Shown in pieces: positions 3,543-44,632 of a stretch of 64,000 nt of DNA. The notes under the pieces were generated by a model, which was not told the origin of the DNA, did no database searches, and worked only from the letters and a program-made list of their open reading frames with translations. Source of the DNA: Paramacrobiotus metropolitanus (Eukaryota > Tardigrada > Eutardigrada > Parachela > Macrobiotidae); the NCBI RefSeq assembly GCF_019649055.1, contig NW_026570433.1, forward strand, positions 62,001 to 126,000, in the 5' to 3' direction. Each line of letters begins with the position of its first letter. The stretch's first letter is position 1. A program made the position numbers and the translations under genes.

Positions 3543-3554
3543 GGCTTCTTTCAG

Positions 3555-6476: not shown

Positions 6477-6597
6477 AGGACTGACCGATGCCGAAGACGA
6501 GGTACTCGAACTGCATGCCGGCGACGGCTGACAGATTTTTTCTTGTTTAATTGGCGACTGGGGAGGCGCCTGTTCTCTCCCCGCGAACTTGACTGCA
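6347..6597 (-). other. Gag-protease / Pol overlap with -1 frame relation
   Basis: The Gag-protease frame ends at a TAG at 6,347-6,349. The Pol frame, one base back (-1), is open from just after a TAA near 6,597, giving about 250 bases of overlap. A run of six A on the coding strand (6,536-6,541), read as AAG AAA AAA in the upstream frame, is the best slip candidate, but it is not a perfect XXXYYYZ heptamer. Confidence 0.5.
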
Positions 6598-9475: not shown

Positions 9476-9486
9476 ATCTCCTGTCG

Positions 9487-11250
9487 CTACCGGGGCTTCC
9501 CTTGGAAACTGTCTATGAAATTTTGATCCTTCTCAAAGGCCGCAGCTTGTGCTTCCTTTCTCGCCTGCGTCGCTTTCTCACAATTTGCGCATTTTTTGTC
9601 ATTTTTCATATCGCTCAGTTCCTTCTGGACTTTGCGATAATTTTCCTTTTCCGTATCCAATAATCCTTCGAGTCGTTCGATTTCTTTTTGAGACTGCTCA
9701 TCCTTTTCCTTAGGAATATGCATCGGGCCAACAGTAGACAGTTTATTAAGCTGTACGTTTGCTTTTGTCAGATCCCGCTGCAGGGTATCCTCTCTGTCTT
9801 AAGCGCGCTTCTTTTCATCATCTAAATCCTTAGAAAGCTTTTGAGAGAGATTTTGTGCATCCGCTAAGTTTTTATTGGTCAACTTGTGCGCGTCTTTTTC
9901 AGCATTTAAATCCCTCTGTGCTTTCGTTAGTTTCTGGTCTAAATCCGCGACCTGCTTCGACATATCAGGGAGCGTTTGTGCTTTAAAGCCGTCAATGGTG
10001 GCTTTCGCTGCCGACAGCTCCCTCTGAGAGTCTTCTAACTGTTTTTCTAAATGCCGATTTGCATCTTTTAATCCATCATGATCATTTTTCATATTGTCAT
10101 AGGCATTTTGTGCATGTTTATTTACATCTCTTAACCGCGAGAGATTATCAACCGCGATGCGTAATTCATTCGCCAACCGGTCGTTCTCAGTTTGTTTGCG
10201 TTCAAATTTAATGCGCATTTCATTAAAATCATTCTGAAATTTTAATTTCAGATTACGTTCTTCGTCGACTCGGGCATCCAGCGACATGGAATTTCCCATT
10301 TCGTCAACTTTTAATTTCGTGGTGGCTATCCATGTCCGCAGACCCTGGAGTAGCACGGGCATCGTCTTCCGGGCGACTAGTCCCACATCTTGATCCGTTT
10401 GCGTTAGAGCCAATAACTCATCAACCTCCTTGGCTTTGGTGAGGAACTCTTCATCAGGTTGCTCGAAGTCTTTCTCCGAGACAAAGGCATGCAATTTCAA
10501 TTGTGACGGGTGAAAGGACATTGCACCACCCAAAATGCTTTTCTTTCTTGCAGAAGCTTCTGGGGCTACATCCGTATTTTCACCAAACGCCATGTGAATA
10601 GGCGTATCATCCTCTGATCGGCTATCCAACTCATCCATATCAAAATCTGGAAGAGGCTGCTCCTTGCCAAAGAGGCTTTCCTCTGAAAGTGGTTCTACAA
10701 GCTTAAGCGGCTCTGTATTTGGTTCACTACGAGTAGCTTGTTCTGCCTTCTCGTTAGTTTTTGACTTGGCTGCCACCGCTCTCTTGGGTCGATCGTCAGA
10801 AACGGACTCCTTTGGTTTTGCTCCAACTTTTGCAGCTGCCTCAAACGCAATAAGAGCCGCTTGTCTACGATCTTCCAAATTTTTCTTGTAACCAGGTAAC
10901 CACTTGTAAGCCTTTTTTACCGCTTCGTTAAACTGATCATCAGTAACATCCACATAAGTTTCTGGAATGCACCGTTCAGTCTCATACCATCCGTTATAAT
11001 AAAAAGGAGCCTTTTTGTTTGGATCAACTGACTTCCCCAATTCTTGGAAATCTACCCACGACTTACCACAGTAAGCTCTCGTTTGGCTGGGTGCCTCCAA
11101 GTTCAAAGCGAAGTACATTAATCCTAACGGAATTTCATCCGGTTTGAATTTGAATCTGGTTTGTGTCGCTGCTGCTTCATATGGGCCAATTATGACCTTA
11201 TCTTCTGGAACCTGGCTTAACGCCTTGTTCCTATTTCCTGGATTGGACAT
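9487..11250 (-). CDS. Long coiled-coil ORF upstream of Gag
   Basis: ATG at 11,250. The frame runs to a TAA at 9,801-9,799 and, in the same frame, on to the TAG at 9,489, about 588 codons with one internal stop. Residues 1-290 are mixed and acidic. From about 300 on it is almost pure heptad-rich helix with many Lys, Glu, Asp, Asn and Gln (for example ANRHLEKQLEDSQREL and LTKAQRDLNAEKDAHKL). Near residue 560 a KKCANCEKA pair of cysteines occurs. It precedes Gag and is joined to it through a -1 slip site, so it is probably the N-terminal structural part of the capsid precursor. The TAA may be a recent loss mutation (a Gln codon would fit). Confidence 0.75.
9517..9523 (-). promoter_or_regulatory. 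Canonical -1 frameshift heptamer A AAU UUC
   Basis: On the minus strand the heptamer AAATTTC is read as A-AAT-TTC in the frame of the coiled-coil ORF, which fits X-XXY-YYZ exactly. The coiled-coil frame stops at TAG 9,489-9,487. The Gag frame lies at -1 and opens after a TGA near 9,535, so the overlap is about 48 bases and the heptamer falls inside it. A slip here would fuse the coiled-coil protein to Gag-protease. I did not fold the downstream RNA for a stimulatory structure. Confidence 0.6.
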
Positions 11251-11251: not shown

Positions 11252-11690
11252 CTTACGGTACGTACAGTAACTATTGTGCTACTGATTACCGTAAACTTTA
11301 AAAATTGCGATTGTGCAATTTAATTTCGCTAGACAGTCCTCCTTTGAGGTTTGAACTGCTTAGCGAAACTTTTACCACAGCCAACCTTTGCGGTTCGACT
11401 GAAAAGATAACTATTAAAATTACTCAGCTGCACTTTGCGTGCTGCCGTAATCTTAACTTACAGATCAATCTTACGGTACATACAGTAGCTATTGTGCTAC
11501 TGTTTCTCGTAAAATTCTAATATTGCAATTGTGCAATTCGGTTTCCACTAGACAGTCCTCCTTTAAGGTTTGAACTGTTCAGTAGAAAATTAATCACAGC
11601 CGACCTTTGCGGTTTCGACTGAAAAACTAAATGCTAAAATTACTTTGCTGCACTTTGCGTGCTGCCGTAATTTAACTCACAGGTCAATCA
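11252..11690 (-). repeat. Two tandem 218-bp repeats in the element 1 leader
   Basis: The stretch from 11,252 (CTTACGGTACGTACAGTA) recurs from 11,470 with a period of about 218-220 bases and roughly 85-90 percent identity by eye. Each unit contains TACAGTAnCTATTGTGCTACTG, a GACAGTCCTCCTTTnAGGTTTGAACTG block, an ACC-TTTGC-GGT mini-hairpin and GCTGCACTTTGCGTGCTGCCGTAA. A degenerate third echo of the middle block lies at 11,928-11,960. The repeats lie directly before the ATG of the first ORF, so they may be promoter or leader modules. Confidence 0.75.
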
Positions 11691-12820
11691 CCGTTTGCCG
11701 GTGTTTACCTTTTCCACAAACAACTATCTCTAGCTGCTGATTCTGGCTACCGCTTGCGGCTTGCCTTTATCAAGCTGCTGGAGATTGTTATCTCACTTGG
11801 CCACTGACAGTGGCTTAATGCTTACTATCTGATCTGTCTGCAGGCCAGGCACACTGACACTGCAAACTACGGTTTATTCACCGCGGTTACTGCTTCGCGC
11901 AGGCAACCCGGAAATTACCGATTTTCAATACAGCCGACCTTTGAGGTTTCGACTGTTTTCCTACGGTCCAATTAAATCAATTTAATTTAATTGGCGAGGA
12001 AGCTCACCACCAGTGAGGAAGCTCACAAATTGCGAGGAAGCTCGCCCAAAAATGAATAAAACTAGGCCAGATCAGGAACGCTGACCTCCTTCGGCGCACC
12101 TTTGCGGTTCGACGCCTTTCGGTTACGGACCACTTTTACTGTAAATTACCACCAAACTTTCCACCAATAATTTTCTGTTACATCGGGAAAATTAAAAGAC
12201 ACCGGTGGGCGCCATGTCGTGTATAAGCGTTCACACCGGTTAGGGTTCCATGAACAATCTTTACTCTTCCACGCCTGTAATGCTCAATCGGTAGGCAACT
12301 CTCATCTCAAACTGTAACAGATCCTTATGGTGGAAATACAACGACTCAGGAACGCGAGAACTCAGGAATCCCTAAGCAGGAACACTCCAATCACAACTTC
12401 CGGTCGTAAGTCCTGTGAGGATCGGCAAGAGCTAGGACGATTGTGTCACGAGCAAACCTGTATACTAAGCGATAATCCGAGAACGACTATGCACTTCCGT
12501 AGGAACAAGTATTGCTGCCTCTTTATCCAATTCACACCACAGTTCACAACGCAAGGAAATCGTAATTAGAAAACAGTCTCAGAAGTCAAGTTCCAGACTA
12601 CTGATCAGTGACTGCTGCCGATATTAGTGACAACCTGAACTTATATAGACTTCGCGTTATGACATCATATACACCGCTAGTAAAAGAGAACAGCAAATCA
12701 CAGTAGAGATTGACTAGATTATCTGTTATGTTGCAGGTGGAAGGCGGACAGTCAGCATCCGTACGTACATCCCGGCGTGTGATCCTACTCCCACACGTCA
12801 GTTCTGCTGTATAAAAATCC
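11691..12820 (-). other. Element 1 leader or LTR-like DNA, no ORF
   Basis: Non-coding DNA between the tandem repeats and the point where receptor homology resumes. It holds three GAGGAAGCTC copies, further ACC-TTTGC-GGT hairpins (near 12,098), and short palindromic patches. No perfect duplicate elsewhere in the window marks it as a complete LTR. Confidence 0.45.
11996..12043 (+). repeat. Three copies of GAGGAAGCTC at 19-bp spacing
   Basis: GAGGAAGCTC starts at 11,996, 12,015 and 12,034, an exact 19-bp period. A related AAGGAAGCTC appears in the leader side of element 2 near 43,588. Regular spacing suggests a protein-binding array or a recent slippage product. Confidence 0.6.
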
Positions 12821-12836
12821 ACCCGTTACGATAACC

Positions 12837-13592
12837 ATTCTCGATCAAATCCAGCTCATCCGTAATCTGGTCATGTCGCTTCGCTGTCCCGTTTTAATCA
12901 TCGTGTTCTTCCGAAAATCCGATGTTAACGACATTCTCAAAGCGCTGGAGGATTTAGTCGCTTCTGGCTTCGTCAGTTATCGAAAAGTAGGCAGAACGGC
13001 TCTTCGCAAATCGTGTATTTCGGTTTGTCTTGCTGCAGTGGTTTTCATTGCTGTGGATTGTACCAGCTGGACGCATCCGCGATACACGAGGGAAGCGTTT
13101 CTAACCGTGTCGGATTTGCATGGCCGAGGCGTGATCCTGCCGCACTGGTTGCACTTAATTATCTGGGAGTTGATGACAACCGTTCCGATTGTGTTCATAA
13201 CACTGTTGCAGATACTGTGTGTCTTGTGCGGCTATTTGCTCGAGCACGGTGTGGACTGTTACCGTGAGGCAATAGAGTCCGATCGCATGGAACTGCATTG
13301 TCAACTGCCGTACCTTATAGCTTTTCACCAGAAACTGGACTGTCTTTCGAAGACTATTCAATACCATTTTGGAGCGTTTGTGGCCGTGGCTTTTCTGGCC
13401 GATGGATACATTATGGTCAGCAGGATGGCAACAGCGAATATCCTGTCGGACCAGCCGAACTTTGGATATCTGGACACCACGTTAGCCGCTGCCGGGTTTT
13501 TGATAGTCGGGTTGATGCCTTACGTACGGGTTCACAAAAAGGTACGGATGAACGACCAGATTTCCGTTTACCTCGATGCTTTTTTGCATTAG
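12837..13592 (+). CDS. Multi-pass membrane receptor-like protein, 5' part missing
   Basis: The frame is open from before 12,837 through an internal ATG at 12,873 to a TAG at 13,590-13,592. The product (about 250 residues) has at least four hydrophobic spans: ISVCLAAVVFIAV, LIIWELMTTVPIVFITLLQ, FGAFVAVAFLADGYIMV and LAAAGFLIVGLMPYV. The segment from LDQIQLIRN to SLRCPVLIIV is nearly identical to part of the copy at 17,013, which also carries an N-terminal portion lacking here. The missing 5' part would lie where element 1 abuts, so insertion probably truncated the gene. General shape resembles invertebrate gustatory-type receptors, but I see no diagnostic motif. Membrane location is firm; ligand and function are unknown. 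Confidence 0.6.
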   Translation: MLDQIQLIRNLVMSLRCPVLIIVFFRKSDVNDILKALEDLVASGFVSYRKVGRTALRKSCISVCLAAVVFIAVDCTSWTHPRYTREAFLTVSDLHGRGVILPHWLHLIIWELMTTVPIVFITLLQILCVLCGYLLEHGVDCYREAIESDRMELHCQLPYLIAFHQKLDCLSKTIQYHFGAFVAVAFLADGYIMVSRMATANILSDQPNFGYLDTTLAAAGFLIVGLMPYVRVHKKVRMNDQISVYLDAFLH

Positions 13593-13831
13593 GAAAGCTT
13601 CCAATTTTTCGAAAGTAAAACGTCTGGCTGCATTGTCCGTCCCTTATAGCAAGACATGTTCAAATTACGGCGTTTTTAATTCACAAACAGAGAGGCATAA
13701 ATCAGTTGATTAGTTTATAAGGCAAAAGCCATCCGAATACTTACCATAAAGGCAAACGCAGGCGCACTACTTAACGGTAAAAATTTTGTACATTGAAAAA
13801 CAACATAAATCTCTCTCATCAAAAAGCTGGG

Positions 13832-13979
13832 AAAAGAATGCAGCAGCACAACGGGGAAGCACGCTCACATGAATTTCTGCGGCAGCGTTTGTCCATCGAA
13901 ATTCAACGGGGAAATGCGGCTTCAGTGCTGGGCACGATGGAAGGGCTGGATAAGCTGAACGAAATTTTTCTGTTATAGT
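13832..13979 (+). CDS. Possible 3' exon of the receptor-like gene
   Basis: An open frame after a plausible acceptor (GAATGCAG) encodes about 45 residues (EARSHEFLRQRLSIEIQ, then a Gly/Leu-rich end) and stops with TAG at 13,977-13,979. It lies 50 bases before an AATAAA. Distance and orientation fit a last exon of the receptor-like gene. No donor in the upstream ORF was pinned down, so the link is inferred. Confidence 0.3.
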
Positions 13980-14029
13980 TCAGCAGTGTGTTTCTTTTTA
14001 TGTTTATGTATTGCTTTTTTGATTTGACC

Positions 14030-14035
14030 AATAAA
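14030..14035 (+). terminator. AATAAA poly(A) signal
   Basis: AATAAA follows the TAG at 13,979 by 50 bases and is followed by T/C-rich sequence, as expected for the 3' end of the receptor-like transcription unit. Confidence 0.4.
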
Positions 14036-16990
14036 GTCTCCAATCTCTATTCTGCCTTGAGTTAAAAGGCACCGTACTTAAAACCGCTGTAGCGTTTCTC
14101 AGCTTTCTCTTAAAGACAGCCCAACCAAAACATAGCTTGAGAAAAGCAGTACATCACGCAATGTAGTAGAATGCAGTAGCAGATTCTATTTCAGCTTTGG
14201 ATTAATGCAAATCTTTTTTAAGCAGGAAGAAGACCTACAGAATAAACTTTGTGTTCTTCTGACCAAAGCTGAGGATACGGTAAGTACTCTGATTAAGTCG
14301 TATCTTTAACCCGTTGACGGGCATTGGCGTCAGGACGCAACATGGTCTTCTGAATTTTTTTCCCAATGATTGAGAACAGTTAATGAATATCAATTAGCAT
14401 AATTAGCAATAAGAGACTTTAAAGCAGCAGTAAAAACATAATTCAAACTTATATCTCAAGTTAATTACAAATGACCGTTGCCCGAAAATTGCTAATTTCG
14501 GACTTTTCAAGCTCTCGTAGATCTTGCTAATTAACTATAATTAGTGGATGAATAATTAAACCAGAGATAAATCAGCAAGGTACAACTAGCAACGTTCTAT
14601 CCAAAATCGATTAACACAGGTCTTTTAAATTGAACAGTAGAAGACCACAGTCCGTCAAAACCTTGTGTTGCGTGCCAACACCATTGCCCATGAAGGGTCT
14701 CAGATACACGGGCGGATGCAATTTCGACTGTTTCTCTTTTTCACATAATCAGATAAAGTTACTGTCGGTTCGTACGCAAAACATGCGCCACGCGGTTCTG
14801 TTGGTCGAAAGCTGGCAAAAAACACTTTTGCGTATCAACACCCCGGGAGGTCGGCGAAAACCAAAATCGCCTCTAAATTTGTCTGCTTCAGGAAAACAGA
14901 ATGCAGGTAAACCGAACACGGTAGTCCTCATTGTAATTCTAACGTCTTTGCAATAACACTGTGAATGGCGGCACAACACCACGTACTTTGCCGCGTTTTT
15001 ACATATTGATGCATCGCTTGGATAAGCTAGGTCAGAGCTGCACAGCTTTTCAGAAACATGAATTTTGTGTGATCAGTCTCGGGTGGTTGAAAACTACAGT
15101 AATTGCACACTTACGCGTGCACATTGGGGATCTTGATCTTTGCGGCAGCCTAGCTAGTTTCTTCCGGTCGCTAATGCGTTCCAGAACGTGCCAGTGACCA
15201 GTGACCGCTAATATCTCACTTTGCGCCAATTGCCACTGCAGCTGGACTATCCGCGCCGCTTTTTAGATAGTAGCACTTGCGGTCACACCAAGGAAAAATG
15301 CAAGCGCGCACAACGCGGGCAGTATAAAGGCGGCTAGGCGTGCCAGACACACAGGAAATGCAATGCTAAACTTCAAAAATAATGCTTCGTGCAGTCTCGT
15401 ATGAGCATATAATGAAAGTTATGGGAGAGAATATCGTTAGTATCGTTTAATTTCTGTATTTGATTTGTTAATAGTGGTCAATATACATGGCAACGGGATT
15501 TGGTAGTTTTTAGTTTTTTGCTGACCAGTGGCCAACAAGTTGACCACTGCTATGCTCCTGTTTGGAAGTGCATTTTTTGTACTATTTAATGAAATTATTG
15601 CTTTTATGTAATTCCCGTTCGTCTAATTATCAGAAAATTAATCGTTTTTAAGCTGTAAACCGTTCATGGGCATTGGCGTTGGCAAACACCCTAGTCACCA
15701 CGGCTGACCTATGGTCAGCACAAGCTTACAAAAAATTCCCTTTCTTAATTGATTTTTTTCACCGGGAAATCCCGAATTTCAAAATGAAACTCGCACTCCT
15801 TCGGGTACCGCCCGCTGGAGGGTTAATATGCATGATTTGATTACTTGTAACTGTTTAACAGAACTGCAATAATACAGTGAGGAAATGCAAGTCTTTACTG
15901 TGCATAACCGAATGTGTCCGACTCTCCATGAAACCGGCGGAGATCCCAGAAATTAGTTCGTCTTGGCTTTTTAAGGTTTGCGCAAGATTTCAAAAACTGA
16001 GAAGGGACTGTGATCACGAGCGATCTATATTTTTATCAATTATTTGCAGACTTTCACTATGATTATCAGCGTGTCCATTGTCGTTCCCGAGCTGCTGCCA
16101 AAGACACCTACCGGCTGCCCAGGTGTAGTTACGGGTTCCAACTGCAGTTGCAGTACTGCGTAAACCATCGACAATAATTTATTGTGTTCGGCTTGATGTG
16201 TTTGTGATACACAAGTTTAATGCAGCATTTTACGCGTATGAAAATACAGTATGTAACCGATGAAAATACAGTGCGTATGCGGCTACATACTATATTTTCA
16301 CCGGTTTAAGGAACGCTCCAGGGTCCGGACCGCGCACACAGATTTTCGGCCCCTTTCAGATCAAAGTAACCAACGGTCCGTATGCGTTGGCTACGCCTCC
16401 ACGTGCTCCTTAAGCTTGCGAAAATATGCTACTTGGTAGAACAGCGCATACGGTTCCATGCTCACACTAGATAGATATCATTTAATTTTTTTAATATTAA
16501 AAGGTCAACTTCGACTGTTTCTCGTACGGCTCAAATATAAGTACGGACAACAAACTGCGAGAACAGCATCTGTATTGTTTCCGGTGAATTAATCGTACCA
16601 TACTTTTACTTGGTGACTGCTTGGAAATGCACTGATATTATTTAAGAATAATTACATCTTTATCATAATATAACATTTTCTGTAAGGGGCGCAACAAAAC
16701 TAAATGGATGAAGGTTGAGATATATTAACGATTGTCAAAATCGTACTGTACAACCTTCAGATCGCTTCAGTGGCATTGTTCCGACCCGTTACTTTGACCA
16801 CTTGCTTGATTAGTTTAGGCAGTCCGAAACTAAACTTGGTACGGCGGCAGCTCAAAAGCATTGTCCAAATCGGTTTTTGCATCCGGTTTACGAGATATTT
16901 CGCATTTTTTTGCTTCAGTGGTGTGCTTGATGGCTGGCAAATTTACTGATTAAGATTCAAGCCTCTGTTCTAAAATAAACGGTAGGCTAG
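14036..16990. other. Long stretch without supported gene
   Basis: Only ORFs below about 110 codons occur, with no domain, signal peptide or splice pattern I can support. An imperfect palindrome lies at 16,239-16,300. Text near 16,505-16,540 resembles the TTCGACTGTTTCTCGTACGG words of the retroelement leaders and may be a small relic. Confidence 0.5.
16239..16300. repeat. Imperfect palindrome with nested direct repeats
   Basis: Arms 16,239-16,255 and 16,284-16,300 (TGAAAATACAGTATGTA and its complement) match at 16 of 17 positions. A second copy of ATGAAAATACAGT lies inside the loop, so the right arm can pair with either left copy. This is MITE-like or attenuator-like in form; nothing else identifies it. 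Confidence 0.5.
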
Positions 16991-17012
16991 CGAATATGCT
17001 ACCTTTATCCGA

Positions 17013-17690
17013 ATGGGAAGCCGACCAGGGGTTACTGTTGTTGTATTCTTTCACACTTTATTGTCTCTGCTCGGTCTGACTAAACCATTATCCCGAACAA
17101 AGTTCATTGCACACTGGGTTATCCGAGGATTCTTGATTGCCGCTGGAGCTGGTTTAGCTTTAACATACTTCATATGCTTCATTCTTGTATACACCGAAGT
17201 TGCCCCGTCAGTCATCACCCTTCTCGATCAGATCCAGATCATCCGTAATCTGTTCATTTCGCTTCGCTGTCCGATCTTGATCATCGTCTTGATCACTTGA
17301 TCATCTGGGAGTTTATGGCGAGCATTCCGACGCTTAGATGCTATATTATATAACGCTGCTGCAGATATACTGTTTGTTCTGTGTGGTTATTTGCTGGAGC
17401 ACGGTATGGACTGCTTTACTGCCAAAATTAAACCAAAAACCAAACGGAGCCTAACGGTAAACTGCGATACCTTATGGAATTCCGGCGGAAAGTGGTCTGT
17501 CTATCGAAGACGATTCAGTGTCAGTGTGGAGCGTTTGTGGCCGTGGCTTCCTAGCTGATGGCTCCATTACGGTCAGCCGGCTGGGAACCGCGAATATTTT
17601 GTCAGACAGACCGAGTTCTGCGTCCCAGTACGCCACGTTAGCCGCTGCCTTGTTTCTGGCAGTTTTTCTTTGTTGACCTGTTTTCATTTC
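17013..17690 (+). pseudogene. Decayed paralogue of the receptor-like gene
   Basis: An ATG at 17,013 opens a 95-codon frame with two hydrophobic spans (VIRGFLIAAGAGLALTYFICF is part of one), followed by LDQIQIIRN and SLRCPILIIV, nearly matching the gene at 12,837. After 17,300 DNA similarity continues (ATCTGGGAGTTnATG, CTGCTGCAGATACTGT, TATTTGCTGGAGCACGGT) but frames are broken and a segment between the two matching blocks is deleted relative to the other copy. A local tandem duplication followed by decay explains this. A few small ORFs to 18,062 may be a further degraded tail. Confidence 0.65.
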
Positions 17691-18346
17691 CTGTTGCGGT
17701 GTTAAGCGATCTTTGGACGGAAATGGCCGAGAGGCACCTAACGCAGTACCCTGTCACGAAGGACGATGACGATAATTTTACGATGTTTTTGTTCACAAAA
17801 GTCGGTCATGACAAAAGCACTGGCAAATCGACAAGTCGACAATGGTCCATCTTTTGCGATTGGGATGTCCAGTTCAATAAAGCCGGTCTGGGGAAGTTTT
17901 ATTGCGCAAATTCAGATTAATGATGTAAACACTAAACAGTCGTTTGAAGATTGTGCAGAAGCGAAATTTGTCAGTGCAATGAAAACAGCGTGGTCGGTGG
18001 TGGCTATCATACTAACCAAAAGCGCTAATATCGTTCTACCGGAACCTCTTCCATCCGACTGAGGGCACCAAGTACAGGGATTGCGTAGCTCAGCTTTCGA
18101 AAAACATTTTAATATTTACAGTATGTGTTTTCGAATGTTAATGAAGTACTTGAGTAACATCGTAGAGACAACATGAGCTACAGTAAATGATTTTTATCGA
18201 AATATCGGCATGTCTAACACCCGTTAAGCCGTGAAGCTAACAATCTAATTAAGCTGATAACAACATTATACAATCATCGCTGGCGTACTGTTAGTTAAAG
18301 CAATCATATTAATAGCGTTGGAGAATTCTATAGTATTGTTGGTTAA

Positions 18347-18907
18347 TCAGTCGCAGCGAAGACTGGCAGCGGCATCACCGCTAGCTTTTTCCGTGATTTG
18401 GTTGCCCACGGAGTCTACACACCAGGCACCCGTGGAGTCATACTGCTTATGCTCCCATCCCAATGGCCACTCCTTGCACGCCGGCACCCAGCGAACAGGA
18501 CCTCCAAACGCAACACCTACCGGAACCAAGCCGTAATACATACATACCACATATAAAAGCTAGCTTGTTTAGCACACAGACGTGGATTTTACGGCGTTCC
18601 AACCGCCGATTGTTGAGATCAAGGAAGTGAAAATCACGTCTGCACAAAATAATTTCGTATGCCACATCTGCGAATTGTTCTGTGACTTGCCTGATTCGGT
18701 TTCGGCTTCTTCTCGGGCTTCTGTACAGCTGCATGACCAGGGAGCTCGTCGCTGGTTCAAGTAACCGTAACCCGACATGCTGCGGTCACTGAGTTCCAAC
18801 GGCAAATATAACATACACAGCTCTCGACCATAAAGCGTGCATTCACCGGACACAACACACAGCGCTACCGCTAGGCATATAAGCGATAGTTTACCGGGTG
18901 CAGCCAT
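18347..18907 (-). CDS. Secreted protein with thyroglobulin type-1-like C-terminus
   Basis: ATG at 18,907 starts MAAPGKLSLICLAVALCVV, a clear signal peptide with cleavage expected near SGE-C. A Cys-containing ectodomain follows, with SCTEAREEAE resembling the first Cys segment of thyroglobulin type-1 repeats. The last block (18,347-18,530) reads RWVPACKEW, then KQYDSTGAWCVDSVGNQI and a final Cys before TGA, which matches the QC-CWCV core of that domain family with Tyr-Asp in place of the usual Gln-Cys. The two parts lie in the same frame but with TAA and TAG between them near 18,560, so a small intron must lie between; I could not place it with certainty. The role could be protease inhibition or matrix binding; that is inference. 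Confidence 0.5.
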
Positions 18908-19607
18908 GTTTTTGTGTGAGAATGTTATATGGATTAAAAACAGCAAGCGACACTATCAGATCCTAAGCCAACGTCTGTTGTAGACCGCAAACGCGGATGT
19001 ACATTTGTTAACTGATGTTAAATGTATTATGTGATAATTATAAGAGTTAGCTCTCTGGTTTAAAAGTTCATGCACATGCGAGTCCCTGAGGTCATCAGAT
19101 CCGGTTCTTCCGTTTTCTTGTGTCGCGCACCTGAGACGCCTAGCCGCTTCTGTTGGGGGTAGACAGGTCACGTCCACGTGGAGATTTTTGTTTGCCGGTG
19201 ACGCTGGCCAACTGGCCGGTACTGTTGCGGGCAGGTGGTCTTCGTCATCGGGGATTCATTAAGGGGGTGCAGGTCGAGTGTTTTAACTCGGTCTGCCTAG
19301 GATGTTCCATAGTAGACGTGGGGAAGCAGGTCTCGGCGGAGTCGTTGGTACACCGGTAGCCAAATCACCGTCGCTGTTCCTCTTCAGGGAATGGCAGCAC
19401 GCTCGGGACGCGCGTAGTCGTGGTCACCGGTGAATCGGCTGGTTTACCCGATATCCTCCGGGGGAGACTTCGGTTGAACTCCGGGTACAGGTTCCTAGTT
19501 GAGTTCCTGTAGATCTGGGTTCAAACGAAGAATCCAGTTAGGCTGCCACGTAACTACTGCTAACTTCCGTCCATTCTTGCTGGTCGACTTCTATTGGCCG
19601 CTATGGT

Positions 19608-19746
19608 CGACCTGTGTGGTCGGCCGCCGTGCACCTAGTCGATCTGTGTGATCGACTATGGTAATTAAGTCGTAATTCGGCGATCTGCCTCCTTGCGAAT
19701 CCGTTCCGGAATTGATGAATTTCCCACAACCGATCTTTGTGATCGG
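19608..19746. repeat. Three short hairpins with 5-nt TGTGT or TTTGT loops
   Basis: CGACC-TGTGT-GGTCG at 19,608-19,622, GTCGATC-TGTGT-GATCGAC at 19,638-19,656, and CCGATC-TTTGT-GATCGG at 19,730-19,746. Stem sequences differ but remain perfectly complementary, and loop length is always 5. A fourth, GCTGACT-TGTGT-AGTCAGC, lies at 20,281-20,299. All are in the 3' non-coding part of element 2. Confidence 0.75.
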
Positions 19747-20386
19747 CTCGAGTACTCATAGTTAAATCCGAGTCGTCCTGCGCTGTTGGCAGCTTGGCCA
19801 AGGGATATCCGCTGTTTGCACTGGTAAAGGCTGTTCGGCTACCCGTTTCCGAGGTCGGCCACGGGTGCTTGGCAAACACGCGGTCAAAGGCACAGCAAGG
19901 TCTTTGATCGCATGTTAGCGTAATCCTCTCGGTTTCTGCTCCGGAGTCGGTTGGCCGGAGTAATCTTCATAACTGATACTGGTTAATGGCGCATTTTGTA
20001 CCATGTAACTTAATTGGTCAGCTCCATGTAACGCGGATTGAGGCTTCTGTTGGCTCCGATGGTAGCAGAACGTGGTTCGCGATGTGCTATCTTAGACCGG
20101 AGCGTCTGTTGGCGTCCGGTAGGAGCTGATGTGGTTCGCGATCTGCCGGTGCCATACTGGGGAACTGAGGTCGGCTTGCTCAGTTCTATCCAGGGGATTC
20201 CTCGGAAGACGTACCGGATCGGTGGAAAAAGCCGGCTTGTCAGGTCTAAACACTCGTGTCCGGGTCGAACCGAAGATCCGGCTGACTTGTGTAGTCAGCA
20301 CTCTGGCAAAGTTATCGTTGATGTCCGCTGTATACATGGTTGGTCAGTTTCTGTAAAAAGAACTAAAGAAGAGTGTCCATTCCGAA

Positions 20387-20463
20387 GTCGTTTCTCGACA
20401 ATGCTGTTTCTCAGCTAGACTGTTTCTCAGTCAGGTCGGTTCTCGACCATGCCGTTTCTCGGC
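20387..20463. repeat. Array of five consecutive hairpins with a constant TTTCT loop
   Basis: Five perfect mini-hairpins with 1-3 bases between them: GTCG-TTTCT-CGAC (20,387-20,399), GCTG-TTTCT-CAGC (20,403-20,415), GACTG-TTTCT-CAGTC (20,418-20,432), GGTCG-GTTCT-CGACC (20,434-20,448) and GCCG-TTTCT-CGGC (20,451-20,463). Stems all differ, the loop is fixed except for one base. On the element's transcript strand the loop reads AGAAA. The array sits just downstream of the last ORF. Confidence 0.85.
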
Positions 20464-20466
20464 GCC

Positions 20467-20538
20467 AAGTCCCATTAGATATTCCACGTGGGGGACCGAG
20501 TTCCAATGTAGGAACTCGATCTTAATTCAATGGGACTT
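20467..20538. terminator. Nested stem-loop spanning the stop of the last ORF of element 2
   Basis: An outer perfect 10-bp stem pairs 20,467-20,476 (AAGTCCCATT) with 20,529-20,538, and an inner 7-bp stem pairs GAGTTCC (20,498-20,504) with GGAACTC (20,511-20,517). The TAA of the last ORF (20,524-20,522) lies inside. It directly follows the five-hairpin array, so a structured 3' end of the RNA is likely. Confidence 0.55.
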
Positions 20539-22288
20539 CAACGGGTTTATCGCCGCCGAAGTAATCTTCTTCATCTTCGTCGTCCGGGCAAGGTCGGTGG
20601 TGTGGCCGCAAGGTCGGGTCCTTGGGTTTACAAGTCGCCGGGCCACTCCGTTGAGACATATCGTCAGTCTCATCCGTTTCCTGGCCGGGACGTTCCGCTC
20701 TAGTCTTCTTCGATTCCTTAGCTGCCTGCCTTCGGAGCCGCAGCGCAAACGGCTGTGCGCCATGTGCTATGGCGTCCGACATCCAAGTTTCGTAAGGCGC
20801 TGAGTTGAATCCGCTGGGTAAAGTCTTCCTTTCACGGTACCAGCTAATAAATCTGGTCGAGTCGTCGCTGGGATCTATGTGATCCTCACGGAAGGCATAC
20901 TTTGTCGCATGCCGTTCGTGGGTGTACAGCAAGTCGCGCATCCAGACGGCGAGGATAACACTTCTCATCGGTGTGCCGAGTTGGGCTACGAGGGTTTCCA
21001 AAGCCGCTGGTATAATCTCCGTTTGATACAGTCCGTACACGGTGTAACGGCAAAAGTAATTGCCAAGCCTTGCCGCAAAGATGAATCGCAGGAATGCCGT
21101 GGCTCCGTCTGGGGCAAAGTCAATCTCCCCTTCTGGAAGGTACTGGGTTAAGTCCAGTGCTGCCCGAGCCGCGGTAATAACAAAGGCTGGATGTGGGTCC
21201 GTGATGACGAACTGGGCAATACTCTCCAACTCGTCATGGGGGTATTCCCGAGCTCCTAGTTGGCTCGCACGTGTTCCGTCCGGGCTATACAGCGGTACGT
21301 TCAACAAGACCGGGTCCGTCATCGAGGGTAACGCATTCGATCTGGTGTATGGGTGTTTAACGTTTAGCGCTGTGTGCGCGTTCATGTTGAAGTCGGGTTG
21401 CCACTGATGTTGTTCCAGCAGCGTCTGGTATCCAGATCAGACGAGGAATTGGCGGAGGTTTTCTACCATCCGCCAAACTTGTGGTCGATTCCGTTCCTCG
21501 TAATTCATGACGTTCATGATGTGATTCGTTCGTTCGGTCGGATGTGGCATCACGACCTCGATTCCCTGTTGTCGGGCATGGTCGTAACGAGGATCTTCTC
21601 GGGCCGGCACTTCCACTTGTGGTAGTTGTGCCATCTGATCGGCCACGTCGACGTCCATTTGCTCGGGTTGAGCTGCTGGTTCAACTTGAGCTTCAGCCGC
21701 CGGTTCTGCCTGATGGGCTTCCGGCTGGGGTTCGGGTGGGACGAAGTCGAAGTTACGCTTCGACTTACTTGTTAAGTCGACTGTTTCTCCGGATCCAGTG
21801 CGTTTTCCTGGTGGAGGTCTGGTCGGTTCTTTTCCGACTTGGCGGATGACAGGTCGTTGCTCTTTGATTCTGTCTCAAAGATCAGCAGGGCCAATCCTAT
21901 GTCGGAGGTCGTGTCCCGCGAGGTTTTTGCCGGGTCGGCGCTGCTGCTGTTGAGCCGCCGATTGAGTCCGAGTTCCATGTTGGGGAATCTGCTGAGAAAC
22001 AGTTGGACGAGCCTGTGTGACTACTGGCGTTGCCCTATGTGGGATTGCCATCAACTGTTCCTCCGTCGCCGGGACAAGGGTAACCGGTCGTTGGGTTCCG
22101 TCCGGCATGTTTATCATCATCGTCACCGATGCGCCAGTCAATGGTCGATGTGGATCGCCGACGAAGACATCACGTATGTTGTGCATCAGTTGCTCGGTAT
22201 TCGGGCGACCCTGTGTGGGTGCCGGTAACCGAATCTTTATTTCTAGTTCGTAAGAAGTCGGTGGGGGATGGACTTTCATTGTGGCCAT
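20522..22288 (-). pseudogene. Element 2 last accessory ORF
   Basis: One reading frame runs from an ATG at 22,288 to the TAA at 20,524-20,522 (589 codons) and is broken only by two TGA codons ending at 21,875 and 21,437. Residues 1-140 contain ELEIKIRLPAPTQ and a Gln-rich tail; 140-280 are Pro/Glu/Ala rich and basic. The C-terminal 290 residues look globular, with many aromatic residues (FIFAARLGNYFCRYTVYGLY, VWMRDLLYTHERH), ending in an acidic tail (CPDDEDEEDYFGG). No membrane span typical of an envelope protein is present. I do not recognise a family. Confidence 0.5.
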
Positions 22289-22680: not shown

Positions 22681-22918
22681 CGTATAAGCTTCCGTACGAG
22701 TCTGTCAAAACAAAAATAAGCAAACCGTTTCTCGGTTGCGTCCTATAAGTTTACACCCTATGATTACTACGGTCGGGCCAGGTCGGTTCTCGAACTGGGC
22801 CAAGACGCCTTGGTGGTCGCCTAATGAGGTAAGTCGACTTCTGTTGGTCGATGACGTCTATGTGGTGTCAATGGAGGAAGGTCGATTATGCCACTCCTCC
22901 GACGCGTTCTGCGTCCCC
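22681..22918. other. Inter-ORF spacer with hairpins
   Basis: A short spacer between accessory ORFs containing AACCG-TTTCT-CGGTT at 22,723-22,737, the same loop as the five-hairpin array, and a weaker relative near 22,772. Confidence 0.4.
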
Positions 22919-23919: not shown

Positions 23920-24260
23920 CGTCATCGTCATCTTTTGGCGATCCATTCCCAGGTGTTCGGAAATCGTTGTCGTCGTCATCGTTAGTTTCTTCTTCGGATG
24001 ACGAGATCAGTTCTGATGACTTTGGTTCCTCCTTCTTCGTCTGATTCCTTTGGTTCCTCCTTCTTCGTCATCTTTTGGCGATCCATTCCCAGGTGACTTT
24101 GGTTCCTCCGTCTTCGTTCTGATGACTTTGGTTCCTCCTTCTTCGTCATCTTTTGGCGATCCATTCCCAGGTGTTCGGAAATCGTTGTCGTCGTCATCGT
24201 TAGTTTCTTCTTCGGATGACGAGATCAGTTCTGATGACTTTGGTTCCTCCTTCTTCGCCG
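23920..24260 (-). repeat. Tandem repeats at the 3' end of an accessory ORF
   Basis: A block of about 110 bases (from CATCTTTTGGCGATCCATTC to CCTCCTTCTTCG) at about 23,928-24,037 recurs almost exactly at 24,147-24,257, spaced by about 219 bases. Shorter partial units fill the interval. In protein they give repeats of GNGSPKDDEEGGTK in an acidic/basic disordered tail. Frame changes and stops cluster in this array, as expected of slippage. Confidence 0.7.
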
Positions 24261-25302
24261 GCTTCTGATTCGTCTTAGTCGACTTTGACTTTCCCTTCTG
24301 TTGGGTCAAATCTTCCGGCTCCGGCGAAATTTCTATGGGCGAGGACGGTGGGAGTGACTGTACGTCCTTCGGTATGAAACGTCCTTTCGCACTCCGACTC
24401 GGTTTCGCCGTGCTTGCTCGTCCTGTGGGAGCCGATGCCGTACCGACATAGGTTGTCGGTTCGAAAGGTGCTCGTGGTCGGGGTAAAGCTTGGACTCGTC
24501 TTTGTGACGACTGTCCAGCCGTACGAGCTATATGCAGCATGTTAGCTGCTTCATCCGACGGTTGTTCGTTCGAATCGCTATAAACTTCGGTAGGTTCCGT
24601 GCCCGCCGGAGGCTTGTCCGTGTTGACATAAGACATCCGGAGGTTGAATTCACGCCGCTGTTGTTTCGGTATGAAGTTGGGCACGGTGTACCGTACAGGT
24701 ACATCGCGTTCCGCGTTGGTCGTCTGGAAGGTGTGTTCCTGGACCAGGGCTTCGACTCGGCCTGCTATATGGTCGATGATGTCGTCGATATTCCCCTTTT
24801 TGTCCATGTACATTACGTTATATACACGGGCGATTTGGACCAATGTCGATCCACGGGGATTCGTGGTGTATCCGATGCACCTGGCGATTCTAGTCGGTGT
24901 ATCGTCCGCGTTCCTTGCGGCTGCACTTCTAAGTGCTTCGATGAGGTCCGGTTGGATCAGTTCAGCCATCCGTCCCCATTGTCGGTGGACGGCTACTGCT
25001 AATCCAAAATCCAAAGTCCAGCCGACGATCTGCATCATGAGTTGATGCGTTAGCCACGTTCCGGTTTCGCCTCCGGCTTGGATATTATTCGACAAGTCTT
25101 GTACCAAGGACTGGTAAATGTCCTTGGCATTTTCCTTAGCGTTCCTAATACTTTGGACGACTTTGACGTGAACTCGGACGGTACGGATTATCGTATCGAC
25201 CGGGTCGTCCTCCTGTTCGTCTGGGAGGCACTGGCGTACATTGTCTGGAGCTGGCCATTGTGATTCATCGGTGTCCGCTCCGTGCTTGAAGATTTCCTTC
25301 AT
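24007..25302 (-). CDS. Element 2 accessory ORF, helical domain plus disordered tail
   Basis: A 431-codon ORF. Residues 25-215 look globular and helical (VVQSIRNAKENAKDIYQSL, LMMQIVGWTLDFGLAVAVHR, IARCIGYTTNPRGSTLVQIA). The rest is Pro/Ser/Lys rich and ends in acidic repeats derived from the tandem DNA array. The upstream ORF at 25,421-26,707 is in a different frame. I do not recognise the domain. Confidence 0.5.
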   Translation of the reverse strand: MKEIFKHGADTDESQWPAPDNVRQCLPDEQEDDPVDTIIRTVRVHVKVVQSIRNAKENAKDIYQSLVQDLSNNIQAGGETGTWLTHQLMMQIVGWTLDFGLAVAVHRQWGRMAELIQPDLIEALRSAAARNADDTPTRIARCIGYTTNPRGSTLVQIARVYNVMYMDKKGNIDDIIDHIAGRVEALVQEHTFQTTNAERDVPVRYTVPNFIPKQQRREFNLRMSYVNTDKPPAGTEPTEVYSDSNEQPSDEAANMLHIARTAGQSSQRRVQALPRPRAPFEPTTYVGTASAPTGRASTAKPSRSAKGRFIPKDVQSLPPSSPIEISPEPEDLTQQKGKSKSTKTNQKPAKKEEPKSSELISSSEEETNDDDDNDFRTPGNGSPKDDEEGGTKVIRTKTEEPKSPGNGSPKDDEEGGTKGIRRRRRNQSHQN

Positions 25303-25420
25303 ATCTCCTTTAAATCCCTCGTAAGGATCGTCTTCTCCGTTGTCGGAGATCGAATCCTTTGCCTCAATCTGGTCGGATTCCGCATCGGAATGTGGTTTCG
25401 ATGTGGAAGGTTGGGGATCT

Positions 25421-26707
25421 TCAGTCGACCGTCGGCGGCTTGGACGACTTCTGTGGTCGACTAGCTGGAGTTTTGGTCGGCTTTGTGCCGGCCCGCTCCA
25501 TAACTTCCTTAAATTTACGCTCCACCGCTTCCTTGTCGTGTGGTTCTCGAGCCTTTTCCTTCTGCTCAGCTTTTTGTGAGCCGGCGTCTGAGATGTCCAA
25601 GTCGTCGGATGACTTATGCCGCTTGGCCGGGTTGGGCTTCGGCGTCTTCACCGTAGAGTCCGACTTCGGTTTAGTCGACTCCTTGGCTTCCGACTTCACT
25701 GGTTTCTTCTGTGTTTCCGTCGGTTGCGGTTTAGCGGGCGGTTTTGCCGCTTCCTTCTTAGCCTTCCGTTTATCCTTATGGGACTTCGTGGAATTAGCCG
25801 AGTTAATGACTCGTAAATCGAGGTCTTCTTCGATCTGCACGGAAGGTTGTTCAGTCGGTGAGGGAACTTTCATCTTAACGACGGGCTGCTGTACCGTCTT
25901 CTTGGTCGACTTGGGATCCGGAGCGGTGACTTTGTGTCGAGTCGGCGTAGCCAATTGTAAGGCTTTAGGTCGACTTTTCTCCGCCCGGTAATGTTCTCCC
26001 ATACGTTTCATGACGTCGGCCATCTTCTCGGTAAGTCGGTCGGGGTCGCGCCGAGCTTTCGTGGTATTTCCGACTATACTGGCACGTCGGAGTCTCAACG
26101 AGTGCCAAAGTTCCCTATCTTCCGGATACGCCATGTCAATGCAATCGTCCTGTTCCGATCTCGTCAAGTCTTTTACGTGTTGAAAGGCGGGATCGTCATG
26201 GAGTTCCCGCGACGAGTCCTGAGGTGGTTTGGGCTTAGTTATACTCCGCTTGGTCGGTATGTTGACCGGCTCGTCTGCCGACTCGTTCGTTCGAGACTCG
26301 TCTACCGTTAGACGTGGGCCGGAGTGTATCGAAGTCGGTTTGTCCCTTTGTGGTGACGTTTCGACCGTGGTTTCGGCTCGTTCTTCCGAAGGGGACGTTG
26401 TGTCCATCTCTTCTTGGGTTTTCTTCGGTTTCGTCGGGGTGTTCCGAGGTGAGAACGTAGGTGGTTTCTCAATCGTCGGTTGACTCGGCAGCTTAGTCGG
26501 CTGGGATGCTGATCGGTTCGGTGAAATTTGTTTTACCGGCGATCTACCGCGTTTTGGCGTGGATCCCTTGGGTGGTGCTGCCGCCTTTTGTTGAATGGAG
26601 TCATCGGAGTCGACGTCGTCTTCGTCCTCCTCTTCTTCGCTACTGTCCGACATTGTTATCGGAATCTTTTCAGTTACCTCTTCTCCAGCCCGAGGTTGGA
26701 CCTCCAA
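25421..26707 (-). CDS. Element 2 accessory ORF, highly charged and disordered
   Basis: A 428-codon ORF that is almost wholly Lys, Glu, Ser, Pro and Thr, with an acidic SSEEEEDEDDVDSDDS patch near residue 20 and long basic stretches (HKDKRKAKKEAAKPP). One more ordered segment occurs near residues 185-235 (DCIDMAYPEDRELWHSLRLR). Charge and composition would fit a nucleic-acid-binding or scaffold role, which is inference only. Confidence 0.5.
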   Translation of the reverse strand: MEVQPRAGEEVTEKIPITMSDSSEEEEDEDDVDSDDSIQQKAAAPPKGSTPKRGRSPVKQISPNRSASQPTKLPSQPTIEKPPTFSPRNTPTKPKKTQEEMDTTSPSEERAETTVETSPQRDKPTSIHSGPRLTVDESRTNESADEPVNIPTKRSITKPKPPQDSSRELHDDPAFQHVKDLTRSEQDDCIDMAYPEDRELWHSLRLRRASIVGNTTKARRDPDRLTEKMADVMKRMGEHYRAEKSRPKALQLATPTRHKVTAPDPKSTKKTVQQPVVKMKVPSPTEQPSVQIEEDLDLRVINSANSTKSHKDKRKAKKEAAKPPAKPQPTETQKKPVKSEAKESTKPKSDSTVKTPKPNPAKRHKSSDDLDISDAGSQKAEQKEKAREPHDKEAVERKFKEVMERAGTKPTKTPASRPQKSSKPPTVD

Positions 26708-26746: not shown

Positions 26747-28615
26747 TTAGATCGTCAATATCATGTTCGAGTCGAGCGGGAGTTGTCGTAGGTCCTGCTT
26801 TCCGCACCTTAGAACCATCAACCGTCTCAAGGCTTTGTCTCTATCCTGGATCGTAGCGTGAATCTTCTGAGCCATTTGAGTCTGTTGCTCTTCCGACATG
26901 GTTCGATCTCGGATACCTCCTTGAAGTTGTGCTTTATAAAGTATCCGTTGAAGATCCATCGTTTTGGCTTGGCTGACCAACTTCTTATGGACGCCTGGAG
27001 TAAATAAGGCCTTTGCTCCCATCACTTTCCGTGACGGGCTCGGCTTTTCTTCTGCCGGAGGTAAGGAAGAGGGAGTCGCCTTTAGCAGTTCCAAGAGTTG
27101 TTCCTTGGTTCTGACTGGTGATGGCGACTTCGACGGGAAGAGACGTCTGCGTGGTCCGTGCTCTTCAATGTTATCAGTCGCTTTCGGCTTCCTTAAGAAT
27201 TTCGGTGAGTTTGATCCGCCTGTTTGGAGGACAAGTCGACCGTCAGGTGTTCGTTCACTCTGCGGTTCTCTTTGTGAGAGCCCGGGTAACGTTGTTGGTC
27301 GTTCGAGGGGCTTAGGTCGGCTACCTTCTGTTGCTCCGACTTCTTCCAATGTGTCCATCGGCTCATCCTCGCCTTCGAGTCCCCGTACTGATAAGTCGTA
27401 CATCGGCTCGTCTTGGTGACTCACCGTTGGGACTACCTGTGTCGGCTTGACAGGTTGTACCTTAGGCTTCTTGGCGGAGGGCGGCTTATTCAGCTTCCTC
27501 CGTTGCTCCGCTTCCTTCCGTTTATGGAAGTCGTCTACGAAGGACTGGATTATGGCCGACAAAGTTTGCAGCCGCTCCCGATTCTTTGCCGACCACACTG
27601 TTGTTGGTCGGAGGATGAATCGGGCTTCCTTGGCGTTATTCTCCAAGTGTCCGAGGTTGATGTCGATCTGACAGTACTGCGGGCTCCGTTGGTCGGTTTC
27701 GTCCATCATCTTTCGGAGTACGGAAATGACGGCGTCCGCTCGCAGTAACTGAGTGTTAACTGCTTTTACCCATTCCAGGGCGGGTTTTGCTGGGGGAGCT
27801 GGAGGTGGAAGTCGAACCGAGTCGAAGGTCGGTTTCCAAACTGACTGGATCTTTGTGATCCGAGACGGTCGACCTTCAGCCATGGCATTTGTTACCAGGC
27901 TGGTCGGTTCCTTCTCCTTGTCTCTCTCCTTTTCTTCCTCGTACTCGTTTACTCTTGTTTCCAACCACGAGGTAGTTTGGATAAGGTGTTGTCAAGTCCT
28001 AGTCGTTTGTGGGGCGTCCGGATGACAAAGTCGTCGTATGAACCGTGCGTTGTTTCCCCATGCCAGGATATCTCGATGCAGGTCGTTTGCCTCCTGACTG
28101 TTATCTACGCTGAAATTTCTTCGGGCTCTCATCTCTGTGATGAGTTCCGCTACTTTAGCCAGCAGTTTGACTACATGTGGCGCGACCGTGCTCGGCAGTT
28201 CGTCCGTGTCCGGTATGGCTTCCATGATCCGAGCTTCTGTGGCCGGAGACATGGGCCGGTCGGCCATATCCATTGGTTTCGGTTAAGCCGGGCCTGCTGT
28301 TGAGGTCGGCTGGAGTCGAATCCGGTCTGTTGTCGAAGTCGGCTGACTCGAAGTGGTCGGCTGTTGCGACCCGGATGCGCGTTGTTCCGCTTCTTTCCGG
28401 TGTTCTACGAGTTCTTTTCGCCGTAATATTTCGAGATCGACTTGCACGTCTTGAATGTGCATCCGCGAGATCCTTATTTGATCCTCAATTGCCGTCCGAA
28501 TGTTACGGATGGTCGGATCTGTTCCGTCCATATTGTCGACTTGGCGTTGCAAGTCGTCGGCAATCTTCTGTGTTCGAGCCAACTTCTGGTTAAGGGCTTC
28601 ACGCTGTTCTACCAA
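26747..28615 (-). pseudogene. Element 2 accessory ORF, helical, with two in-frame stops
   Basis: A single frame from about 28,615 to 26,747 broken by a TAA at 28,285-28,283 and a TGA at 27,994-27,992. The N-terminal part is coiled coil (QREALNQKLARTQKIADDLQ, DQIRISRMHIQDVQVDL); the middle is charged (NEYEEEKERDKEKEP); the C-terminal part has helical patches (FLRKPKATDNIEEH, LYKAQLQGGIRDRTM) and ends LRQLPLDSNMILTI. The frame shift to the upstream ORF occurs near 28,660. Unknown function. Confidence 0.45.
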
Positions 28616-43145: not shown

Positions 43146-43409
43146 TGTGGTCAAACCAGGTCGGCTCTGATGGAGCCTTAAAGGGTTTATCAGTTAGAAA
43201 AAGAAAGTCGAACGATCTTCTGTGTGAAGATGTTCGGTGAATTCAGGAACGTCTTTTGGTTCTGGAACTTCCGAGTGTCAGGACCGTCCGGTTTGTTGTT
43301 GTTTGTTGTGTCTGTTGGTGACTCAGTACACAGGATTAATATGCAGTACGATGGTACAGTACAGTACGTAATAGTAGTACGGTGTAGTACGTCCTATACT
43401 ACTGTGCTG

Positions 43410-44586: not shown

Positions 44587-44632
44587 AAGAACCACTTTAG
44601 CAACCACCCAAGTGGTTGCTAAAGTGGTTCTT
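44587..44632. repeat. Perfect 21-bp inverted repeat with 4-nt loop
   Basis: AAGAACCACTTTAGCAACCAC at 44,587-44,607, loop CCAA, and the exact complement at 44,612-44,632. A 21-bp perfect stem with a tetraloop is far beyond chance in 64 kb. It could be a small palindromic insertion, a cruciform site or a small-RNA hairpin. Confidence 0.85.

Follow-up and report, generated by a model that had tools for sequence, protein, structure and literature searches.

Hairpins with shared loops along a giant Ty3-type retroelement of the tardigrade Paramacrobiotus metropolitanus: possible docking sites for a protein of the element

A giant Ty3-type long terminal repeat (LTR) retroelement lies on the minus strand of a 64,000-nucleotide (nt) stretch of the Paramacrobiotus metropolitanus genome (contig NW_026570433.1, positions 62,001 to 126,000; hereafter the window), and its transcript strand carries many short hairpins whose loops belong mainly to two classes, ACRNA and AGAAM. 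The loop and the pairing of both classes are under selection, and for ACRNA this selection is demonstrable at the RNA level. We give a probability of about one half to the reading that an RNA-binding protein encoded by the element docks at these dispersed hairpins and would condense or package the RNA; the binding, the partner and the packaging are what we infer from these data. A sequence-only reading had described one array of five such hairpins as a signal of its own near the 3′ end. The array itself is present, but it belongs to an element-wide set with two loop classes.

Results

Pentaloop hairpins are in excess along the element and follow its transcript

On the sense strand of 19049-44750 there are 58 perfect pentaloop hairpins with stems of at least 5 base pairs (bp), 22 without motif loops and 36 with them (22 ACRNA, 5 AGAAM and 9 others), where the motif set was chosen after the window hairpins had been seen and is looser than ACRNA/AGAAM in the strand and copy-pairing tests. 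Less circular checks of this set are given by family B and by the substitution tests described below. In 40 random sequences for each of Markov orders 2, 3 and 4, only 1.3-1.4 motif hairpins of this stem length are expected (maximum 4), and about 18 pentaloop hairpins of any loop. Under a Markov-1 model the 58 pentaloop hairpins of 19500-44000 compare with 15.2 +- 3.9; the corresponding figures are 10 vs 7.2 for a neighbouring gypsy element, 7 vs 6.3 for 11300-19500 and 27 vs 17.8 +- 4.7 for 44000-64000. A further control, in which 3′ flanks were swapped among occurrences of the same loop, preserves local composition: 27/190 ACA.A loops have stems of at least 4 bp, against a mean of 1.2 (maximum 6, 300 swaps).

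None of the 177 motif pentamers on the opposite strand of the element has such stems. In the tested parts of the window outside the element, 0/1766 motif pentamers have stems of at least 5 bp and 10/1766 have stems of at least 4 bp. Across seven other copies, sampled in 20 stretches, there are 229 sense and 7 antisense motif hairpins. That the hairpins are nearly all oriented with the transcript argues for a role in RNA and not in DNA. No Rfam family matched at gathering score within 19000-44800.

With stems of at least 4 bp, 34 ACRNA hairpins are spread across the element, 24 of them with a C-G closing pair, while the closing pair is G-C in 7 of 10 AGAAM hairpins, 9 of which lie outside the listed open reading frames (ORFs). 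The 62 motif hairpins of this stem length comprise 39 within a single ORF, 19 outside ORFs and 4 in ORF overlaps. Since the 39 fall in all codon phases (15, 12 and 12), they do not encode a peptide motif, though the cluster at 42342-42668 coincides with PTTQVG-like repeats.

Loops and stems are conserved among copies

The hairpins were compared, piece by piece, with seven other copies (one in part). Motif hairpins are fully paired in 153/207 copy instances with 64/1116 cells broken, compared to 46/136 and 159/707, respectively, for non-motif hairpins. Substitutions follow the same division: stems of ACRNA hairpins differ at 85/1930 sites (4.4%) vs 499/3773 (13.2%) in their flanks, and stems of AGAA hairpins at 4.5% vs 13.0%, while for other pentaloops stems (665/4594, 14.5%) and flanks (1442/10195, 14.1%) are alike; the copies are related, so these substitutions are not independent events, and the same copies serve as the control.

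Within coding sequence, third codon positions differ at 45/668 (6.7%) in ACRNA hairpins, compared to 7445/32101 (23.2%) outside hairpins, 445/1856 (24.0%) in non-motif hairpins and 43/282 in AACA hairpins. The scarcity of third-position changes in ACRNA hairpins indicates that selection acts on the RNA. Outside ORFs, 34/743 sites differ in ACRNA and 45/809 in AGAA hairpins, against a background of 4723/37358.

A five-hairpin array persists in diverged relatives

Re-reading of 20387-20463 bears out five adjoining perfect hairpins with complementary stems of 4, 4, 5, 5 and 4 bp, separated by spacers of 3, 2, 1 and 2 nt, so that loop starts in the window copy are 16 nt apart. The transcript loop was said to be AGAAA; it is so in four, and AGAAC in the other.

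20387-20399, minus strand: array hairpin 1, 4 bp, transcript loop AGAAA; plus strand GTCG-TTTCT-CGAC
20403-20415, minus strand: array hairpin 2, 4 bp, loop AGAAA; plus strand GCTG-TTTCT-CAGC; a G-U paired AUAAA variant in some copies
20418-20432, minus strand: array hairpin 3, 5 bp, loop AGAAA; plus strand GACTG-TTTCT-CAGTC; A-U/G-C and U-A/G-U changes in other families
20434-20448, minus strand: array hairpin 4, 5 bp, loop AGAAC; plus strand GGTCG-GTTCT-CGACC
20451-20463, minus strand: array hairpin 5, 4 bp, loop AGAAA; plus strand GCCG-TTTCT-CGGC; G-C to A-U in copy L012

The array was placed directly 3′ of the last ORF, and it does lie downstream of it, 58 nt from its end at 20522. It is not the end of the element: in another copy, C1, about 3 kb separate the array from the 3′ LTR, and the window copy continues past the array to 19049. 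Between the last ORF and the array there is also an 8-bp hairpin with loop TACATT (20497-20518), present in most aligned copies.

Copies were sought across the 169.8-Mb genome (533 contigs). With 20300-20600 as the query, the best 40 of 143 candidates were scored, namely the window and 39 others at 84-92% identity, and the array is found in all 40. Pairing is held in 758/770 stem cells (98.4%) of 35 distinct rows of the window family, which we call family A. Its 22 stem pairs include 9 that are invariant, 7 with a one-side change, 4 that depart only by unpaired cells and 2 with a both-side change (G-C to A-U in L012, and the G-U variant with loop AUAAA). Covariation within the family is thus weak because its stems are mostly constant, and the idea of free stems under a conserved structure and loop does not hold at this level.

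It does hold between families. Genome-wide, GAGAAMC x3 as a spaced pattern has 134+127 matches vs 0+0 for the reversed control, counts that take in overlapping matches and some plain tandem repeats; the array is thus more frequent than chance. The 15-mer of hairpin 4 has 163 exact genome matches vs 0 for its reversed control. We fetched 18 places with other stems: all five hairpins at 16-nt steps are found in 9 of these arrays, and 1-4 hairpins by the same criterion in the other 9. Several belong to a second family, family B (L077, L078 and L080-L088, plus C12 and C23 at length), whose identity to the window is about 65-76% over the parts that align. For the comparison between families 19 rows were chosen, i.e. 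8/40 window-family arrays and 11/18 fetched arrays, leaving out L083, L085, L086 and L088 (nearly identical to L082), L080 (a misplaced slice), and L091 and L093 (short or rearranged). In these rows 93.7% of 412 cells pair. Both-side changes number 23 cells vs a shuffle mean of 7.0, with 0/500 shuffles as high, and affect 7 pairs vs 2.8 shuffled; the covariation score is 0.167 vs at most 0.087 with slid partners. The count of further pair types in the array is not significant (15 vs 13.3 shuffled, 54/500 as high). The array in diverged relatives thus keeps AGAAM loops while its stems covary.

Many ACRNA loops are heptaloops in family B

In the family B copy C23, hairpins with 7-nt loops show the largest excess of any loop length (66 vs 21.1 +- 3.4). 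Heptamers of the form [CA]AC[AG].AA have stems of at least 4 bp in 28/109 cases in C23 (swapped 1.8, maximum 5), in 10/49 in C12 (0.57, maximum 4) and in 5/69 in the window copy (0.41, maximum 3). AC[AG].A pentaloop hairpins number 34/434 in the window copy, 11/395 in C23 (swapped 1.55, maximum 6) and 5/154 in C12. Many family B ACRNA loops are N-ACRNA-A heptaloops. Some 7-nt loops of the window copy contain ACAAA or ACAGA.

Of the 34 ACRNA sites, 28 could be aligned site by site between the two families. Where family A has a G after the loop (20 aligned sites), family B has A at 10, G at 8, T at 1 and a gap at 1. At the 9 homologous sites of this kind whose AC[AG].A core is kept in family B, the base is A in 8 and T in 1, compared to a background G to A rate of 14.9%. 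Where the core survives, the closing pair is thus open in family B. At many homologous sites the ACRNA loop context shows one and the same difference. Hairpins beyond the array include the following, with pairing counted in up to seven other copies:

43820-43834, minus strand: AGAAC hairpin of the 5′ region, GGTCG-AGAAC-CGACC, identical to the 15-mer of array hairpin 4; fully paired in 6/6 copies
43215-43231, minus strand: ACACA hairpin; 5/6; U-A to C-G change; A for G after the loop in family B
42342-42668, minus strand: ACRNA and AACAA hairpins clustered within an ORF; their translation gives PTTQVG-like peptide repeats
40341-40359, minus strand: ACACA hairpin, 7 bp, in an ORF; 1/5
37832-37848, minus strand: ACAAA hairpin; 7/7
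36192-36208, minus strand: ACACA hairpin; 7/7; U-A to C-G change; A for G after the loop in family B
34954-34970, minus strand: ACGCA hairpin, 6 bp; 3/7; fully paired in family B
28128-28144, minus strand: ACAGA hairpin; 6/7; A for G after the loop in family B
27847-27861, minus strand: ACAAA hairpin in ORF 26747-27991; 7/7; A for G after the loop in family B
24496-24510, minus strand: ACAAA hairpin in ORF 24007-25647; 7/7; A for G after the loop in family B
22901-22915, minus strand: AGAAC hairpin; 5/7; G-C to A-U within family A
22723-22737, minus strand: AGAAA hairpin; 7/7; A-U to U-A in family B
20871-20885, minus strand: ACATA hairpin in the last ORF; 6/7
20281-20299, minus strand: ACACA hairpin, 7 bp; 5/7
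19730-19746, minus strand: ACAAA hairpin, 6 bp; no comparable copy
19636-19658, minus strand: ACACA hairpin, 9 bp; 0/2 comparable copies, with one break each, inner 8 bp
19608-19622, minus strand: ACACA hairpin; 4/4

The host is a Ty3-type element of unusual length

The sequence-only reading was right to name a giant retroelement as the host. By its domains and by the paired LTRs of C1, it is of the Ty3/gypsy (Metaviridae) type.

19049-44750, minus strand: giant Ty3-type LTR retroelement copy, 3′-truncated at 19049, with interrupted ORFs; carries the hairpins
44455-44750, minus strand: part of the 5′ LTR, with AATAAA; matches the LTR that is present twice in C1
32704-34782, minus strand: reverse transcriptase (RT), RNase H and integrase H2C2 (RVT_1, RT_RNaseH and Integrase_H2C2 matches)

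Similarity begins at 19049-19051 in 39 listed copies and ends at 44743-44750 in 19 listed copies; the window copy is 3′-truncated, since other copies share sequence beyond 19049. The paired LTRs of C1 are 96.4% identical over 445 nt, and the window copy is without a 3′ LTR. On the 44455-44750 side the LTR of C1 is about 196 nt longer than that of the window. The 25.7 kb in the window, together with about 2 kb more 3′ sequence in L075, suggest a full element of about 28 kb; C1 spans about 34 kb, perhaps including insertions. By our reading, with the usual rules, the LTR begins with TG and ends with CA, and is followed by a primer-site-like TGGTAGCAGCATC. The LTR of the window copy contains a perfect inverted repeat (44592-44627; 16 bp, 4-nt loop), which was not seen in this form in L074 or L076. 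Short tandem duplications (126 nt at 97%) are found at 23922-24265, at the 3′ end of ORF 24007-25647.

A protease-like match is also present in the element ORFs. For the integrase catalytic core (rve) there was no match among the window's scanned ORFs of the giant element or in six ORFs of copies, which did not take in the pol part downstream of H2C2 in other copies. A search with the RT protein matched 1359 proteins, of which the 120 listed are 32-44% identical.

A trans-mobilised, non-autonomous family was considered as well, as C12 (L095) is without the pol part yet keeps hairpins. Its deletion (L095:6822-6823) joins the equivalents of window positions 34889 and 23413, and this junction is spanned whole by 1/40 scored matches (the best 40 of 231 candidates), C12 itself. 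The junction thus appears to stem from a single deletion event, and the idea was abandoned.

Discussion

A multivalent docking system

Loops that are shared and selected at the RNA level, stems that are specific to a family, and a joint difference in loop context are together what would be expected of many binding sites for one protein. The sequence-only reading had offered packaging, dimerisation, export and protein docking for the array, and docking is the best-fitting class of explanation. The hairpins would act as multivalent docking sites for an element-encoded RNA-binding protein, perhaps with a separate protein or domain for each loop class. Spread along the RNA, the protein would coat, condense, protect or package a transcript of about 28 kb or more, with the five-fold array as a dense entry point; if the protein changed, the identical loop change would be selected at many sites. 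More tentatively, and in our view more doubtful than probable, the whole genomic RNA may be an addressable scaffold with two loop codes and two element-encoded proteins, in which the ACRNA code (closed pentaloop vs open heptaloop) lets the proteins of coexisting families tell their own RNA apart.

Candidate partners were sought among the proteins of the element:

38998-40089, minus strand: Gag-like ORF (by reading); low-confidence predicted fold
38583-39260, minus strand: ORF with a C-x2-C-x4-H-x4-C knuckle in its translation, candidate nucleocapsid
20522-21436, minus strand: last ORF; no known domain

We take the C-x2-C-x4-H-x4-C segment of ORF 38583-39260 to be a zinc knuckle. A protein search with the Gag-like ORF gave no homologue at E <= 0.001 among 7997 scored candidates, and the three matches of a PDB sequence search (E 0.52-0.61) are taken as chance. 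None of the scanned accessory ORFs reaches a Pfam cut-off, and the predicted structures are uninformative, with a mean predicted local distance difference test score (pLDDT) of 34.6 for the last ORF and 39.7 for the Gag-like ORF.

A number of observations weigh against the docking reading. The constraint on AACA loops is weak, with differences of 10.1% in stems and 19.3% in flanks, and in AGAA hairpins that lie within ORFs 6/40 third positions differ. Distinct changes within family A comprise 8 both-side changes vs 36 breaks for ACRNA and AGAA, 22 vs 174 for control hairpins and 4 vs 16 for AACA; these are too few for covariation in family A to serve as the chief proof, and substitution rates and between-family covariation were used instead. 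Some motif hairpins fail in every compared copy (31553, 0/6; 36151, 0/7). The 16-nt step of the array departs in 16/40 copies, by +3 nt between two hairpins in 15 and by -1 nt in 1. The pentaloop excess is found in family B too (C23: 44 vs 18.8 +- 3.5). Furthermore, many sites are not kept in family B, in which 11/50 comparable motif instances are fully paired and 21/91 of the others (47 motif and 67 other cells being excluded for no alignment, 10 and 14 for gaps, and 3 and 4 as partial). In a third lineage (L099, 8 kb) the picture is mixed and the signal modest, with pentaloops at 5/115 (swapped 0.51, maximum 3) and heptaloops at 3/19 (0.5, maximum 3). Finally, the zinc knuckle was rejected as the loop reader: in the pentaloop copies C65 and C3 this segment is 88% like that of heptaloop family B and 46% like that of the window, so the CCHC segment does not track loop type.

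The knuckle segment of C65 and C3 (L051, L066) suggests recombination between families. The remainder of Gag, which is 61% identical between the window and C23, and the products of the ORFs near 28 kb (44%) and 24 kb (60%) and of the last ORF (60-62%) have diverged and stay candidate loop readers. The main part of RT is 88% identical.

Alternative explanations

The most serious competitor, though an unlikely one, is that the element exploits a host RNA-binding protein (acting in stability, localisation, export or translation) which has its sites in the hairpins. Multi-copy hairpins with a specific loop would suit host regulators as well, and so would the position of nearly all AGAAM hairpins outside the listed ORFs. 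However, sites also lie within coding regions in all phases, and the two families have different ACRNA loop contexts in one genome. Because families A and B share that genome, and hence its host proteins, an element-encoded partner is the likelier one. A rather less likely account holds that the hairpins belong to a general genome-scale RNA structure, which serves compaction or the evasion of silencing by small RNAs and leaves A-rich loops because A rarely pairs. On the transcript strand the mean folding z-score of the element is indeed -1.49 (opposite strand, -1.10), compared to -0.12 to -0.57 elsewhere on the transcript-side strand, and loops of 4 and 6-12 nt also have an excess of stems in 19049-44750, albeit a milder one. 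Such a structure would not lead one to expect a single loop length and sequence in each family, few loop substitutions, or a shared change from 5 to 7 nt.

Contacts between RNAs, in reverse transcription, recombination or dimerisation, would need no protein, and the presence of one 15-mer at both 43820-43834 and 20434-20448 means that GGTCGAGAACCGACC at the two ends could pair in trans. We consider this improbable: the loops are not self-complementary, and the element-wide spread of ACRNA presumably has no obvious role in strand transfer. Recurring stems (GACC/GGTC) and the local cluster at 42342-42668 might recall a spreading palindromic repeat or an effect of base composition, but a mutational artefact of this kind is contradicted by the Markov-2 to -4 and flank-swap controls, by strand specificity and by the reduced third-position change, and is hardly credible.

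Relation to known systems

As proposed, the hairpins would work like the multi-site packaging signals of satellite tobacco necrosis virus (STNV), which, in the part of PMC3593212 consulted, have AXXA in loops of 4, 5 or 6 bases, about 30 copies per genome and the aptamer loop ACAA. The element resembles this system in its many dispersed short stem-loops that share an A-rich loop motif on indifferent stems. It differs in being an LTR retroelement of about 28 kb or more, in its loop of ACRNA (5 nt) or N-ACRNA-A (7 nt), in its second AGAAM class with a spaced array, and in that ACACA is without AXXA.

Hepatitis B virus reverse-transcribes its genome, and known Gag-bound hairpins of retroviruses lie mainly in the 5′ leader. 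The element's sites, in contrast to such leader hairpins, run throughout its whole length. Mouse mammary tumour virus (MMTV) and Ty1 have RNA sites bound by Gag, according to the portions of the literature consulted. The core protein of hepatitis B virus recognises several dispersed packaging stem-loops with the short loop motif RGAG, as described in the part of PMC7612645 consulted; the element likewise has dispersed stem-loops sharing a short loop motif, but loop and virus group are unrelated, and its sites are predicted from sequence. Burro of planarians and Ogre of plants are giant gypsy-like LTR retrotransposons which, like this element, carry additional ORFs and are of similar size, and the consulted part of PMC6431247 mentions no hairpin array for them. 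The same part names packaging capacity as a possible limit on retrotransposon size. A literature search over partly seen sources, with most subscription papers and all bioRxiv preprints outside its scope, returned no description of such a hairpin system in a retroelement.

Candidate cis-acting sites for the selection and compaction of very long retroelement RNAs can here be recognised in the sequence itself. Two related families that share a host and differ in a defined way in their loops offer a ready comparison of matched vs mismatched loops, and the element is a natural case of many RNA sites inside protein-coding sequence that seem to have co-evolved with one partner.

Other features of the window

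A second gypsy-type element lies at 1254-11250 on the same strand and has no clear hairpin excess. Remains that by reading resemble Polinton/Maverick are found at 52770-59091, with a match to Peptidase_C5, the adenovirus-type endoprotease, at 58612-59091 (E 1.4e-6) beside ORFs without clear domains. In addition, a gene-like stretch is present in two diverged copies, 12831-13502 and 17214-17658 (71-86%), of which one holds an ORF of 239 amino acids.
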